Assembly: GCA_020854815.1 (NCBI GenBank) | Contig: JAHKLW010000061.1 | Location: 1-43,386, forward strand | Direction of reading: 5' to 3' | DNA length: 43,386 nucleotides | Source of the DNA: Methanofastidiosum sp. | GTDB taxonomy: Archaea; Methanobacteriota_B; Thermococci; Methanofastidiosales; Methanofastidiosaceae | Shown: in pieces, positions 32,395 through 36,122 of the stretch | Layout: every line of letters begins with the position of its first letter | Position numbering within the stretch: the first letter of the stretch is position 1 | Notes under the pieces: generated by a model | The model's input: the letters and a program-made list of their open reading frames with translations, nothing else | Databases searched by the model: none | Told to the model about the DNA's origin: nothing | Position numbers and translations under genes: made by a program

Positions 32395-32402
32395 TGAATA
32401 TG
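32395..32402 (+). repeat. Target-site duplication, left copy
   Basis: TGAATATG lies immediately outside the left inverted repeat and is identical to the copy at 36115-36122. An 8-bp duplication is the standard size for the IS6 family. Confidence 0.85.
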
Positions 32403-32486
32403 GGTTCTTATGCAATTTCGTGACCTAGACTTTTATAAAATTAGCTTATGCAAGTCGAAGTCTCTTTGAAAATTTATTGCAAAAAG
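32403..32486 (+). repeat. Left terminal region: inverted repeat plus subterminal motifs
   Basis: The outer 18 bp form the terminal inverted repeat. A second TTATGCA motif (TTATGCAAGTCG, 32446-32457) repeats the core of the end. At 32468-32485 GAAAATTTATTGCAAAAA matches a right-end segment (36066-36083, one shifted position) in the same orientation. Such iterated motifs are typical of transposase-binding end regions. Confidence 0.7.
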
Positions 32487-32489
32487 TCC

Positions 32490-33041
32490 TTAGTCTAACC
32501 CAAAATTGTCTTTCATAAATTTTCTTATTTCTTCGTAGCATTGATAAAATGTTTCTCTTGGTACCGCAATATCATTATTACTAAGAATCTTAATATAAGA
32601 TATTATAGTATTCGCATATGAATTTGGAACTTTATTACTCTCTTTTTTTAGATTATTTGAAGATTGTAAGATTCCATTAACATAAACTTTTGCAGTTAAT
32701 CCCAAACTAGATTCAACTTTAGCGTCAGTATGTCTTGAATCCATTTGAGTTGTTTTATAATGTCTAAGGTCACTCGAAAGTTCTGTTATCTTTGAAGTTG
32801 CAGTATTATTTTTTGATTTTTCATCATAATTAAATAAATGGTCTTCTTTTGTAACAAGTTCCTTGTATTTATCATGCTTTAATTTTTCTCTCATAGAATA
32901 AACTATTTGAGAAAAAGCAAATAAGTTATACAAATCTTCTTCAGCATTACCTGTCGGACTGTCTATATGTTCTTTTGAAATCTTTAACATTTTCCAATAC
33001 AAAGGTATTTCGTATTTTCTCTCATCTGAAATATCTTTCAT
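32490..33041 (-). CDS. Unknown 183-aa protein, third gene of the element's PIN operon
   Basis: No family is recognised. The sequence is charged, mostly helical and soluble: a helical N-terminal half (DLYNLFAFSQIVYSMREKLKHDKYKELV), a Ser/Thr/Asn-rich middle and a helical end (ISYIKILSNNDIAVPRETFYQCYEEIRKFMKDNFGLD). The ATG at 33041 has AAAGG very close upstream and lies 59 bp after the PIN gene. It stops 4 bp inside the left terminal region of the element, so it is cargo. It may be an antitoxin, an immunity factor or an effector of the PIN module, but nothing in the sequence decides this. Confidence 0.6.
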   Translation of the reverse strand: MKDISDERKYEIPLYWKMLKISKEHIDSPTGNAEEDLYNLFAFSQIVYSMREKLKHDKYKELVTKEDHLFNYDEKSKNNTATSKITELSSDLRHYKTTQMDSRHTDAKVESSLGLTAKVYVNGILQSSNNLKKESNKVPNSYANTIISYIKILSNNDIAVPRETFYQCYEEIRKFMKDNFGLD

Positions 33042-33100
33042 CCTTTGTCGGTAGTAAGAAAGTTAGTTGGTGCTACAATCTTAACCACTATCGACGGACT

Positions 33101-33805
33101 TTAATCCATTGGACTTTCTTCAGTAGTAGGGAATGGATAAGACTTAAAAAAGTTTTTCAATTTATCTTGTAAATATTGAGGTTGTTTTTCTATCTGATAT
33201 TTTTTACAAAATAAATAATTTGGTGGGAATCCTACTATGTTTTCAGGCTTTAGTACCTGTATACCAGATTCTAAAAATTTTTGTTCTAATAAATGTATAT
33301 CTCTGGTTATAAATGTATCAGCATTACATTTCTTTGCACATTTTAATTGGATAGCATCTTCCAAAGATATTCCTAATTTTGGGGATAAATCAAACGCTTT
33401 GTGAAATTCATCGTCTGTTAGAGACTCAACATAAAAATGTTTTTTATATATAAGAATATTTTTTGCACTTTCTGATCCATCAGTGTTACTTTTTTCACAA
33501 CGATTACTTACCGCCGACAGAGCTATATCGATAGTTTGTTGACTAATAATTCCAATAAAATCTTTTTTGATAATTTTATTAATAAGTACAGTACTTCCAT
33601 ACCATAAAGGATACCCATCATCACAGTATCTCAGTTGTACCGAGTCTAAAAAACAACATACATCTATAAAAATTCTTTTTGGCTCGAACTTTTTTATTGG
33701 ATTAATTTTTCTATTACATTTAACAAAATTAGGCAGTAATCCAGTTTCTTTGAAACTATCAACTTTTATTAGTTCCTTTAAAAAATCTGGATTACCTGTT
33801 GTCAA
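33101..33805 (-). CDS. PIN-domain protein, probable toxin-like ribonuclease
   Basis: The 234-aa protein has a PIN nuclease core after a 40-residue N-terminal extension. The first acidic strand is KRIFIDVCCFLDSV (Asp48), the helix carrying the next acids is GISLEDAIQLKCAKKC (Glu149, Asp150), and NADTFITRDIHLLEQ supplies Asp169. These positions match VapC-like RNases, which cut tRNA or mRNA using bound metal. A further C-terminal extension of about 50 residues is unusual for VapC. The TTG start at 33805 has GGGAGG 8 nt upstream, inside the preceding 75-aa gene. The two genes overlap by 14 bp and are translationally coupled, as in toxin-antitoxin pairs. Confidence 0.75.
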   Translation of the reverse strand: MTTGNPDFLKELIKVDSFKETGLLPNFVKCNRKINPIKKFEPKRIFIDVCCFLDSVQLRYCDDGYPLWYGSTVLINKIIKKDFIGIISQQTIDIALSAVSNRCEKSNTDGSESAKNILIYKKHFYVESLTDDEFHKAFDLSPKLGISLEDAIQLKCAKKCNADTFITRDIHLLEQKFLESGIQVLKPENIVGFPPNYLFCKKYQIEKQPQYLQDKLKNFFKSYPFPTTEESPMD

Positions 33806-34019
33806 TCAAATATCCTCCCTTCATTAGAACAGGAAACAACGTTTTTACTCCAGTATAACATGCTTCCTGCGTTGGTGCAAGGGCAAAAATTTCTAGGACT
33901 AATGGGTCTAAAGACTCCAAAAAATTTTTATATTCTACTTCATCCTCTACGAAATCTGCGGTGTCCTTCAATATGCGGGATATTAAGATTTCTTTCTTGT
34001 TGTCCGTTTTTGCCACCAT
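33792..34019 (-). CDS. Small 75-aa protein upstream of PIN gene, candidate antitoxin
   Basis: The acidic 75-aa protein MVAKTDNKKEILISRILKDTADFVEDEVEYKNFLESLDPL... ends GGYLIDNR. It is predominantly helical and matches no antitoxin family I recognise. The ATG has GAGGT 8 nt upstream. Its position directly before a PIN gene with a 14-bp overlap is the classic place for an antitoxin. No RHH, AbrB or HTH signature is visible, so the role is inferred from context only. Confidence 0.6.
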   Translation of the reverse strand: MVAKTDNKKEILISRILKDTADFVEDEVEYKNFLESLDPLVLEIFALAPTQEACYTGVKTLFPVLMKGGYLIDNR

Positions 34020-34030
34020 TTTAATTACCT

Positions 34031-34093
34031 CTACTTAAAACCTCTAGGTATAACCTTTTTAAGGTTACCCATTACATTTGCGTTTTTTCTCAT
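34031..34093 (-). CDS. 20-codon basic leader ORF before the PIN operon
   Basis: A complete mini-ORF starts at ATG 34091-34093 behind an excellent AAAGGAGGAAA ribosome site and ends with TAG 34031-34033. The peptide (starts MRKNANVMG, ends VIPRGFK) is strongly basic. An inverted repeat able to form a hairpin (34047-34069) lies within its coding sequence, and it ends 11 bp before the next ATG. The strong ribosome site argues that it is translated. It may be a leader peptide regulating the operon or a tiny functional protein. Confidence 0.5.
   Translation of the reverse strand: MRKNANVMGNLKKVIPRGFK
34047..34069 (-). other. Hairpin-forming inverted repeat in the leader ORF
   Basis: The plus strand reads GGT(AT)AACCTT-TTT-AAGGTTACC, a nine-pair stem with a two-base bulge and a three-base loop. 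On the minus-strand transcript it sits inside the leader ORF and upstream of the ribosome site of the 75-aa gene. Confidence 0.45.
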
Positions 34094-34124
34094 AAAATTT
34101 CCTCCTTTTTTCTTTATATTATTA

Positions 34125-34165
34125 TCTATTTTACGGTATAATTTACGCCGTAAAGCTTAAATACT
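34125..34165. promoter_or_regulatory. Divergent promoter region with operator-like palindrome
   Basis: TTTACGG (34130-34136) and CCGTAAA (34148-34154) form a perfect 7-bp inverted repeat with an 11-bp spacer. The spacer contains GTATAATTTAC, usable as the TATA box of the minus-strand PIN operon. Just to the right is CTTAAATA (about 34156-34163), a TATA box for the transposase on the plus strand. A protein bound at the palindrome could control both directions. Confidence 0.5.
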
Positions 34166-34194
34166 AGAAAGTTCTACTATTTTATGGTGCTACA

Positions 34195-35361
34195 ATGGTA
34201 TTAACCACAAACAGTAGAATGATTAGGGGCTATGCAATAATAGCCAAAGGGGACGAGCCAATCTTGGTAAGTTCTGACGAGTTTAAAATCCACTCGCAAA
34301 GTGGAAAAGGATATTATTTGGTAAGGCACGGCTACAAGATATGGACATGCAACTGTCCCGACCACTTTTACAGGCGTATAGAGTGCAAGCATATCAACGC
34401 CGTCAAGTTCTGGATGAAACTTAAAAGTAGGCTTGAAGATGAGGCAAAGGCACGGATCTTCACACCAGAGACGGACACAGAAACTAAATGCCCGAACTGC
34501 AACTCCACAAACTTAGCAAAGAAAGGATTTAGAAAGAATAAGAACGGCATGAAGCAGATGTACCAGTGCAAGGAGTGCAACAAAAGATTTTCAGTCGATG
34601 ACGGATTCAAGTACAACACAAGCGACCAGAGGGTAATAACACTCTCACTCGATTTATACTTCAAAGGTCTATCACAGAACAATATAACACAGCACTTGGC
34701 GCAGTTCTACAACGTGACGGTCAATCAGTCCACAGTCTCACGATGGATAAGAAAGTACCTAACCTTGATTTCAGACTACACAAAGACACTAACTCCCGAC
34801 GTATCGGGCATGTGGGCGATAGACGAGATGGCCTTGAAGTGCAACGGCGAGTGGAACTGGCTCTGGAACTTGATGGACACCGATACACGCTTTTTGATAA
34901 CATCAATGATTTCAGAGGGCAAGACTAGGGATGTTGACACTGCAAGACTACCACTCAAAGAGGCAAAGCAAATCACAGGCACAACACCAGACATCTTAAT
35001 TTCTGATGGATTAAACGCATACAAAGAGGCAGTAAGAAAAGAGTTCCAGATGCACAGAAAAGGTGACGGTAGGAACACTACACACATCAGGGAAATAGCA
35101 ATCACGAACAAGGAACGAAACAACAACAAGATAGAAAGATTGCACGGTTCAATGCGACAGAGAAACAAGGTGCAGAGAGGGCTAAAGAATATCGAACCAT
35201 CAAAGGATTTTGTTGACGGCTTCAAGGCGTACTACAACTTCATACGACCCCATCAAGCCTTGAACGGAAAGACGCCTGCACAGATGGCGGGTATTGAGCT
35301 AGGTCTTGACGGCAACAAGTGGGAAGGATTGATTAAGCAGAGTGTGAGGGTAAAAAGATGA
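34195..35361 (+). CDS. IS6/IS240-type DDE transposase with SWIM and zinc-ribbon domains
   Basis: This 388-aa protein has three parts. Residues about 45-70 form a SWIM zinc finger (WTCNCPDHF ... ECKHINAVKFW; Cys52, Cys54, Cys64, His66). Residues 99-131 form a zinc ribbon (CPNCNSTN ... YQCKECNKRF). HTH-like sequence (QRVITLSLDLYFKGLSQNNITQHLAQFYNVTVNQSTVSRWI) leads into an IS240-type DDE domain with Asp210 (WAIDEMALK), Asp271 (LISDGLNAY), Glu314 (NNKIERLHG) and the ending YYNFIRPHQALNGKTPAQMAGI. All catalytic acids are present and the frame is intact. Standard IS6 transposases are about 235 aa and lack the SWIM module. No ribosome site precedes the ATG, so the message may be near-leaderless. 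Confidence 0.92.
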   Translation: MVLTTNSRMIRGYAIIAKGDEPILVSSDEFKIHSQSGKGYYLVRHGYKIWTCNCPDHFYRRIECKHINAVKFWMKLKSRLEDEAKARIFTPETDTETKCPNCNSTNLAKKGFRKNKNGMKQMYQCKECNKRFSVDDGFKYNTSDQRVITLSLDLYFKGLSQNNITQHLAQFYNVTVNQSTVSRWIRKYLTLISDYTKTLTPDVSGMWAIDEMALKCNGEWNWLWNLMDTDTRFLITSMISEGKTRDVDTARLPLKEAKQITGTTPDILISDGLNAYKEAVRKEFQMHRKGDGRNTTHIREIAITNKERNNNKIERLHGSMRQRNKVQRGLKNIEPSKDFVDGFKAYYNFIRPHQALNGKTPAQMAGIELGLDGNKWEGLIKQSVRVKR

Positions 35362-35528
35362 GTGAAATAATATCTAAAGTAGCAAGGTCAAAGAAAGAGT
35401 ATAAATCCCTTAGAACTACAGTACCATCTGAAATAAGCTTCTATCTAGGGCTTGAAGATGGCGACAGTATAGTTTGGGAAAAGAAAGAAGTTGAAGGTAA
35501 GAAAGTTATTGCCGTAAGAAAGCAGTAA
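35358..35528 (+). CDS. AbrB/SpoVT-like DNA-binding protein, 56 aa
   Basis: A short gene starts at ATG 35358 inside the transposase stop (ATGA overlap) and ends with TAA 35526-35528. The product, MSEIISKVARSKKEYKSLRT then TVPSEISFYLGLEDGDSIVWEKKEVEGK..., has the swapped-hairpin AbrB pattern (TVP.ei...LGLedGDsivW). Such proteins are usually transcriptional autoregulators or antitoxins. Coupling to the transposase suggests that it regulates transposition, perhaps through the palindrome at 34130-34154. A direct antitoxin role towards the PIN protein is possible but unproven. Confidence 0.75.
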   Translation: MSEIISKVARSKKEYKSLRTTVPSEISFYLGLEDGDSIVWEKKEVEGKKVIAVRKQ

Positions 35529-35552
35529 CTTTTATTTTTTATTTTATTTCTT
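35529..35552 (+). terminator. T-rich terminator after transposase-AbrB unit
   Basis: CTTTTATTTTTTATTTTATTTC follows the AbrB stop directly. Runs of T without a hairpin are a common archaeal termination signal. A TATTTAAGG box about 10-15 bp further on may promote the next gene. Confidence 0.4.
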
Positions 35553-35588
35553 AGTAAATTATTTAAGGAATAAAAATTAATTTTTTAT

Positions 35589-35852
35589 ATGAAACATAAA
35601 ACAACTTTTTTTGAAGTGATTTGGCTAAACATTATATTTGCACTAATTTATTTCTTTGGTGTAGTAAAACTTTGTTTTGAATTTGTATTGAGCTGGTTAT
35701 TTAAAACAGAAATAAAATTAGACTTCTTGAGTTTTATCGTTACATTAGTCACTAAATATAATCGTATCATAATTGTAGTTTGGATATTCTTTTGTTTAGT
35801 TTATCTTTATTCGTATATCAAAGATAGTCCAACACATACAAAAAGAGTGTAA
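35589..35852 (+). CDS. Small membrane protein, element cargo
   Basis: The 87-aa protein has two clear hydrophobic segments (VIWLNIIFALIYFFGVVKLCFEFVLSWLF and IIIVVWIFFCLVYLYSYI) separated by a short charged loop. It matches nothing I recognise. ATTATTTAAGG about 30 nt before the ATG and no ribosome site suggest leaderless expression. Its 3' end overlaps by 35 bp the convergent small membrane gene. Confidence 0.55.
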   Translation: MKHKTTFFEVIWLNIIFALIYFFGVVKLCFEFVLSWLFKTEIKLDFLSFIVTLVTKYNRIIIVVWIFFCLVYLYSYIKDSPTHTKRV

Positions 35853-35997
35853 TTACAAGCAAAGCTACTAGAAGCCACCCTAAAATTAGGCTGTCTACCC
35901 CCATACAAATAAACAATCCTAAAATACTTACTCCTGTTATTATATGCAATCTTTTTCTTTTTGATTGTTTAAACCATATACCAGATATTTTTTCCAT
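35818..35997 (-). CDS. Small two-helix membrane protein, element cargo
   Basis: The 59-aa protein begins MEKISGIWFKQSKRKRLHIIT, a basic N-terminus, followed by two hydrophobic stretches (GVSILGLFICMGVDSLILGWLLVALLVITLFLYVL). The ATG at 35997 has GGAGA 9 nt upstream; a GTG at 36006 overlaps that ribosome site and is less likely. It converges on the previous membrane gene and lies just inside the right terminal region. Function is unknown; small hydrophobic proteins next to toxin-like modules are worth testing for membrane effects. Confidence 0.5.
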   Translation of the reverse strand: MEKISGIWFKQSKRKRLHIITGVSILGLFICMGVDSLILGWLLVALLVITLFLYVLDYL

Positions 35998-36048
35998 ATT
36001 TATCACTCTCCAGTTTTAATCAATTTTTTAGAAACACATTTCAGACCT

Positions 36049-36114
36049 CGAAATGCATAATCCGAAGAAATTTTATTGCAAAAACGGTAAAAGCCTCGAA
36101 TTTGCATAAGAACC
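36049..36114 (-). repeat. Right terminal region: inverted repeat plus subterminal motifs
   Basis: The outer end CGAATTTGCATAAGAACC (36097-36114) is the inverted partner of the left end. An inner CGAAATGCATAA (36049-36060) repeats the core, mirroring the two TTATGCA motifs at the left end. ATTTTATTGCAAAAA (36069-36083) corresponds to the left segment around 32471-32485. Confidence 0.7.
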
Positions 36115-36122
36115 TGAATATG
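36115..36122 (+). repeat. Target-site duplication, right copy
   Basis: TGAATATG directly follows the right inverted repeat and is identical to 32395-32402. Removing the element and one copy restores a compact intergenic region of about 105 bp between the ACT-domain and pop5 genes. Confidence 0.85.

Follow-up and report, generated by a model that had tools for sequence, protein, structure and literature searches.

The window, i.e. the whole stretch of 43,386 nucleotides that was analysed, contains a complete transposon at positions 32403-36114 (3712 bp; TIR GGTTCTTATGCAA). The extent of this element, here called C61, is given by paired TIRs that are both flanked by TGAATATG; in shuffles of the window, a TIR match of 18/21 (3 mismatches) is expected in none. 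A second element of the same genome is called C19. The features of the window copy are:

32395-32402, no strand: left target-site duplication (TSD) TGAATATG, with the same 8 bp at 36115-36122.
32403-32423, plus strand: left TIR GGTTCTTATGCAATTTCGTGA, 21 bases, matching the right TIR at 18 of 21 positions.
32490-33041, minus strand: putative cargo ORF of 183 aa with a weak Pfam match to MmeI_TRD (E=0.0097, below cut-off).
33101-33805, minus strand: cargo PIN-domain protein of 234 aa (Pfam PIN, E=2.8e-4, slightly below cut-off).
33792-34019, minus strand: ORF of 75 aa that runs into the start of the PIN gene, the probable PIN partner; a homologous ORF has the same place in genome G012.
34130-34154, no strand: a weak operator candidate, TTTACGG-N11-CCGTAAA, immediately before a TATA-like box; palindrome not significant against shuffles.
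34156-34163, plus strand: TATA-like box CTTAAATA of the putative transposase promoter, identical in both copies.
34195-35361, plus strand: transposase of 388 aa with a SWIM-like CxC..CxH motif, a zinc ribbon and an IS240-type DDE domain.
35358-35528, plus strand: AbrB-like regulator ORF of 56 aa, sharing ATGA with the transposase stop and having an AbrB-type profile.
35529-35553, plus strand: T-rich stretch after the AbrB stop, which differs little between the two copies and may be a terminator.
35589-35852, plus strand: cargo ORF for a putative membrane protein of 87 aa.
35818-36006, minus strand: convergent cargo ORF for a putative membrane protein of up to 62 aa.
36094-36114, minus strand: right TIR, 21 bases, repeated without change at the right end of C19.
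36115-36122, no strand: right TSD TGAATATG, a perfect 8-bp copy of the left one.

The earlier note had missed the ends of the element; read against these boundaries, the PIN gene and the small membrane ORFs are cargo inside the transposon. A short IS with an end near 34084 was considered and dropped, as the right end lies at 36114 and the left TIR at 32403. C19 and G018 also carry small membrane ORFs at the place of the 35818-36006 ORF. The PIN gene and the 75-aa ORF (33101-34019, minus strand) are conserved as a pair in G012 (L107 1230-2139) and may constitute an undescribed toxin-antitoxin-like pair; the 75-aa protein had no family match above cut-off. An inner TTATGCA..TTCG-like repeat lies next to the TIR at each end (32403-32490 and 36030-36114) and is possibly a second binding site for the transposase. 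The transposase itself contains the Pfam domain DDE_Tnp_IS240 (E=4e-16) and matches NCBIfam transpos_IS6 (NF033587) at 6e-33 with 114.2 bits, which is below the cut-off of 125.

As the earlier note had described, an AbrB-like gene is present behind the transposase gene, and the ATG of this 56-codon ORF overlaps the transposase stop codon via a shared ATGA; its product is MSEIISKVARSKKEYKSLRTTVPSEISFYLGLEDGDSIVWEKKEVEGKKVIAVRKQ. Searches with AbrB/MazE profiles bore out the family assignment in part. Using the 56-aa protein alone, Pfam MazE_antitoxin gave 16.2 bits (E=0.01), below the cut-off of 24.7; however, a profile of eight relatives detected the AbrB structures 5itm, 2l66 and 5itj as the top matches in PDB (E about 0.003), with 3o27 and SpoVT ranking next. 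For L043 and L079, which are close relatives of the window AbrB, the sequence profile match had an E-value of about 1e-4. With regard to the interleaved beta-dimer fold of this superfamily, a monomer model made from the single sequence had a pLDDT of 71, and its best Foldseek matches had E > 0.001; the AbrB protein 3o27 was second in rank with a weak E-value of about 1. The profile searches indicate that assignment of the product to the AbrB/MazE swapped-hairpin superfamily is correct at the superfamily level; judged from the single sequence, an assignment to AbrB is weak.

The second element (C19:21579-24630, about 3050 bp, TSD CTAAAAGC) is likewise TIR-bounded, and in both copies TIRs and perfect 8-bp TSDs enclose the element. 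Both terminal regions, the transposase gene and the ATGA-linked AbrB gene are common to C61 and C19, while the cargo differs completely and C19 has no PIN gene. Over 126 bp, the right ends are 93% identical. The two transposases are 91% identical (dN about 0.05, dS about 0.8) and the two AbrB proteins 46% identical (dN 0.46, dS about 1.0, dN/dS about 0.46). Moreover, the C19 AbrB is 70% identical to the AbrB of G018, which belongs to another family, and thus nearer to it than to the window AbrB, while the G018 transposase is about equally far from those of C61 and C19 (69-70%). This pattern is evidence for exchange of the AbrB gene or for unusually fast change. The candidate-operator block is not the same in C61 and C19, whereas the adjoining TATA region is conserved. 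CTACC/GGTA half-sites are common to C19 and L079-type elements, which is suggestive only.

Within the phylum, the transposase is present in 6 of 115 genomes. An AbrB gene lies directly 3' of the transposase gene in five of the six relatives from the order (C61, C19, G018, G004 and a decayed element in G007); hence, the same neighbour beside related transposases, which the earlier note had suggested looking for, is kept at four loci other than that of the window, one of which is a decayed pseudogene. With an AbrB match and a conserved frame, neither of the two outcomes named in the earlier note as refuting its observation was obtained. The make-up of these relatives points to a Methanofastidiosales-like archaeon, in the class that includes Thermococcus. 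The ATGA overlap is found in C61, C19 and G007, and the TSD of the decayed G007 element matches at 7/8 positions. G016:C7, with a transposase 66% identical, has neither an AbrB gene 3' of the transposase gene nor a recognised divergent regulator, and the regulator is therefore not indispensable. Placement of AbrB 3' of the transposase was found only within this order; the viral contigs searched contained no relative of the transposase, and L016, the sole match in the search of genome contigs, has no AbrB downstream. In G016:C1, a TIR-bounded stretch of 1.3 kb (L024 4467-5775) with an imperfect target duplication has no transposase and is possibly a non-autonomous relative; it holds a 228-aa ORF and a small membrane ORF, and a lone AbrB gene is located 57 bp beyond its boundary.

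Related transposases that are 30-47% identical to that of the window occur across the archaea, and one family rich in them (54 of 200 genomes) looks like the ammonia-oxidising Nitrosopumilaceae. We examined the best 42 distant loci, and the upstream region was visible in 40 of these. At 36 of the 40 informative loci, a divergent ORF of 44-82 aa, probably encoding a DNA-binding protein, lies near the transposase start. The 36 partners comprise 15 ribbon-helix-helix (RHH), 11 AbrB-like and 5 zinc-ribbon proteins and 5 other small candidates, classes that were assigned mainly by eye and spot-checked with Pfam, several having no Pfam match. The divergent AbrB proteins of L043 and L079 are 38% identical to the window protein, and a profile search detected four more divergent AbrB pairs (L082, L084, L087 and L089). 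TIR/TSD-bounded elements that enclose the regulator include L038, L060, L061, L065, L069, L072 and L078; exact 8-bp duplications accompany TIR matches of 18/18 in L060 and L069, 16/18 in L078 and 15/18 in L038 and L061. In L040, L045, L055, L068 and L073, the place of the regulator is taken by a small zinc-ribbon protein (CxxC..CPKCKS.YWNKP), which is no obvious repressor. Separately, members of the same AbrB subfamily are encoded, in other archaea, immediately ahead of genes for DNA methyltransferases or type I restriction-modification systems (L036 3569-5654, L085, L100 and L105), recalling restriction controller (C) proteins. The AbrB gene of the Thermococcus-like G050, located beside a transposase remnant in L036, is followed at once by a gene for a type I methyltransferase, and we set it aside as a probable coincidence.

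The 120 bases before the transposase gene were compared with shuffles at 44 loci. In 23 of the 44 promoters, the palindrome was stronger than those in shuffled sequence (p<0.05), with about 2 such promoters expected. The earlier note had proposed an operator in 34125-34165; an inverted repeat is indeed present there, but it is no stronger than in shuffled sequence (p about 0.23), and we therefore do not use the window promoter as proof of an operator. Similarly, the palindrome of the C19 promoter was not significant (p 0.72). Candidate operators in the transposase promoter are clear across the distant relatives, but the window's own palindrome is not significant. Three promoter motifs (RHH-type, AbrB 'MKLQ'-type and AbrB 'W'-type) occur mainly with the matching partner, i.e. 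TACCAATAGATA-like sites mainly with an RHH partner, TTAGGTACCTAA sites mainly with one AbrB type and ATCCGTACGGAT sites with another; because the motifs were read from the very sequences in which they were scored, this specificity is only suggestive. Among thaumarchaeal pairs, L076 has an AbrB partner and TATCCGTACGGATA, and L063 an RHH partner and TACCAATAGATA.

Closely related transposases have partners of different classes in L054/L055 (91% protein identity), L063/L076 (85%), L064/L075 (82%) and L052/L053 (78%). In all four pairs, DNA homology begins at the transposase start codon or no more than about 20 nt from it, with additional similarity in the distal flank of L063/L076; in the same-partner pairs L059/L062 and L063/L067, by contrast, similarity runs on through the regulator. 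Because homology ends at or near the start codon, regulator and promoter sites appear to change together. The promoter palindromes of L054/L055, L063/L076 and L064/L075 differ along with regulator class. A transposase tree with 33 labelled loci shows at least 10 switches between partner classes.

Altogether, we consider it likely that the 56-aa ORF encodes an exchangeable AbrB-type repressor of the element's own transposase, which in this element is located 3' of its target and is probably translationally coupled to it. The AbrB protein would be translated from the mRNA of the transposase gene, probably through coupling of translation at the ATGA, and would act by binding and repressing the transposase promoter; transposase and repressor would rise together, and transposition would shut itself down. 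As the gene is 3' and overlapping, both proteins would come from a single transcript, with repression setting in after the transposase has been synthesised. Repressor gene and operators would move as a cassette. The earlier note had suggested a repressor that is encoded by the element and tied to the transposase, and the comparisons support this idea well: the gene lies inside TIR-bounded elements and stays with the transposase as the cargo changes, and distant divergent AbrB and RHH genes have palindromes in the shared promoter, although the window palindrome is not significant. The fixed ratio of repressor to transposase that was part of the same idea is something we only infer from the overlap. 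More widely, the best explanation of the sequence comparisons is that archaeal zinc-ribbon/SWIM-like IS6-type transposons combine a transposase with one small, exchangeable and probably DNA-binding regulator (AbrB, RHH or zinc ribbon) and that, outside the order, the genes for regulator and transposase point away from each other, with palindromic sites in the intervening DNA.

It is conceivable that AbrB is an accessory factor of the transposition complex, rather than mainly a repressor, that binds or bends the ends or brings the transposase to target or host DNA. AbrB stays with and overlaps the transposase as equimolar subunits would, and the second subterminal repeat at each end could be bound by some protein; however, a role as a structural partner is hard to hold because unrelated regulator folds replace each other beside transposases that are 82-91% identical, and the regulator-matched palindromes sit in the promoter. 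We therefore regard an accessory factor as unlikely. It is also unlikely that AbrB is a cargo regulator that by chance lies behind the transposase gene and controls other genes, as its relatives beside DNA methyltransferases may do. While subfamily members precede restriction-modification or methyltransferase genes at four loci and the AbrB gene of G016:C1 has no adjoining transposase gene, AbrB remains constant beside the transposase in copies with wholly different cargo.

The earlier note had alternatively proposed that AbrB acts in trans as an antitoxin to PIN. Pairs of a PIN toxin and an antitoxin of the AbrB/MazE type are known from other systems, among them a Tn3-family transposon (PMC7157771), but the linkage fails in both directions and this proposal was rejected as very improbable: in C19, G018, G004 and G007, AbrB accompanies the transposase and no PIN match is present, and the PIN homologue of G012, in which no AbrB or transposase homologue was found, is preceded by an overlapping partner of its own that is a homologue of the window 75-aa ORF. 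Because the PIN protein has a conserved partner of its own, an antitoxin role of AbrB is unlikely. Finally, the ORF is short and its Pfam score is under the cut-off, as would be expected of a chance ORF or a decaying remnant without function; conservation contradicts this reading, i.e. length, start overlap and AbrB profile are conserved across loci and dN/dS is below 1. The probability of a chance ORF is thus negligible, and comparison across loci confirms that the 56-aa ORF is a real gene.

Returning to the self-repression reading, a tentative extension is that archaeal IS6-like transposons have the equivalent of a phage immunity region, in which repressor and operators are swapped as a unit between nearly identical transposases. 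Elements with different repressors might then escape cross-silencing, and C61 and C19, with their similar transposases and dissimilar AbrB proteins, could represent two immunity types. If the proposed self-repression is true, a common group of archaeal transposons holds a compact module with interchangeable regulators and operators; this would explain how several near-identical elements coexist in one genome, and would provide small, ready repressor-operator pairs for archaeal genetics. The control of archaeal transposition has been little studied. A survey of thaumarchaeal mobile elements reports IS-like transposons of one or two genes (PMC6563490), and a text search of it gave no match to AbrB or SWIM. 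In a literature search that lay outside subscription papers and ISfinder, we found no account of a lone exchangeable transposon regulator. Self-repression of transposons is a known principle, and a lone regulator that is exchangeable together with its operators is what appears to be new.

The AbrB/SpoVT-MazE proteins, among them C68 of pSSVx and C56 of pSSVi, are similar to the product of the 56-aa ORF in their size and profile match and are likewise associated with mobile elements of archaea; unlike these, the gene described here is 3' of and overlaps a transposase gene and has no toxin partner. In Tn3-family transposons, toxin-antitoxin pairs are located close to the control region (PMC7157771), i.e. 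antitoxin-type DNA-binding proteins beside transposition genes and proposed to regulate them, whereas here a lone regulator without a toxin is found in an archaeal IS6-like element. The IS6 family is described as having 8-bp duplications, zinc-finger clades and one passenger-carrying member, ISDsp3 (PMC7986276), and long and archaeal members have been argued not to be true IS6/IS26 (PMC6807381). The elements studied here share with the long forms (clades h and i, PMC7986276) a DDE transposase with an N-terminal zinc-finger extension, a TIR starting with GGTTCT, as in GGTTCTTATGCAA, and 8-bp target duplications (TGAATATG in C61, CTAAAAGC in C19). They differ from IS6/IS26 in that they are 3.0-3.7 kb long (3712 and about 3050 bp), rather than about 0.7-1.8 kb with a transposase only, in that they hold a regulator and cargo, and in the score of the transposase under the NCBIfam IS6 cut-off.

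Transposon-encoded repressors include InsA of IS1, OrfA of the IS3 family, the Mu repressor and TnpR of Tn3, with one repressor type per family. As in these systems, a small element-encoded DNA-binding protein is thought to limit transposase synthesis; by contrast, the proteins that substitute for each other in the archaeal elements, together with their sites, are of AbrB, RHH and zinc-ribbon type.
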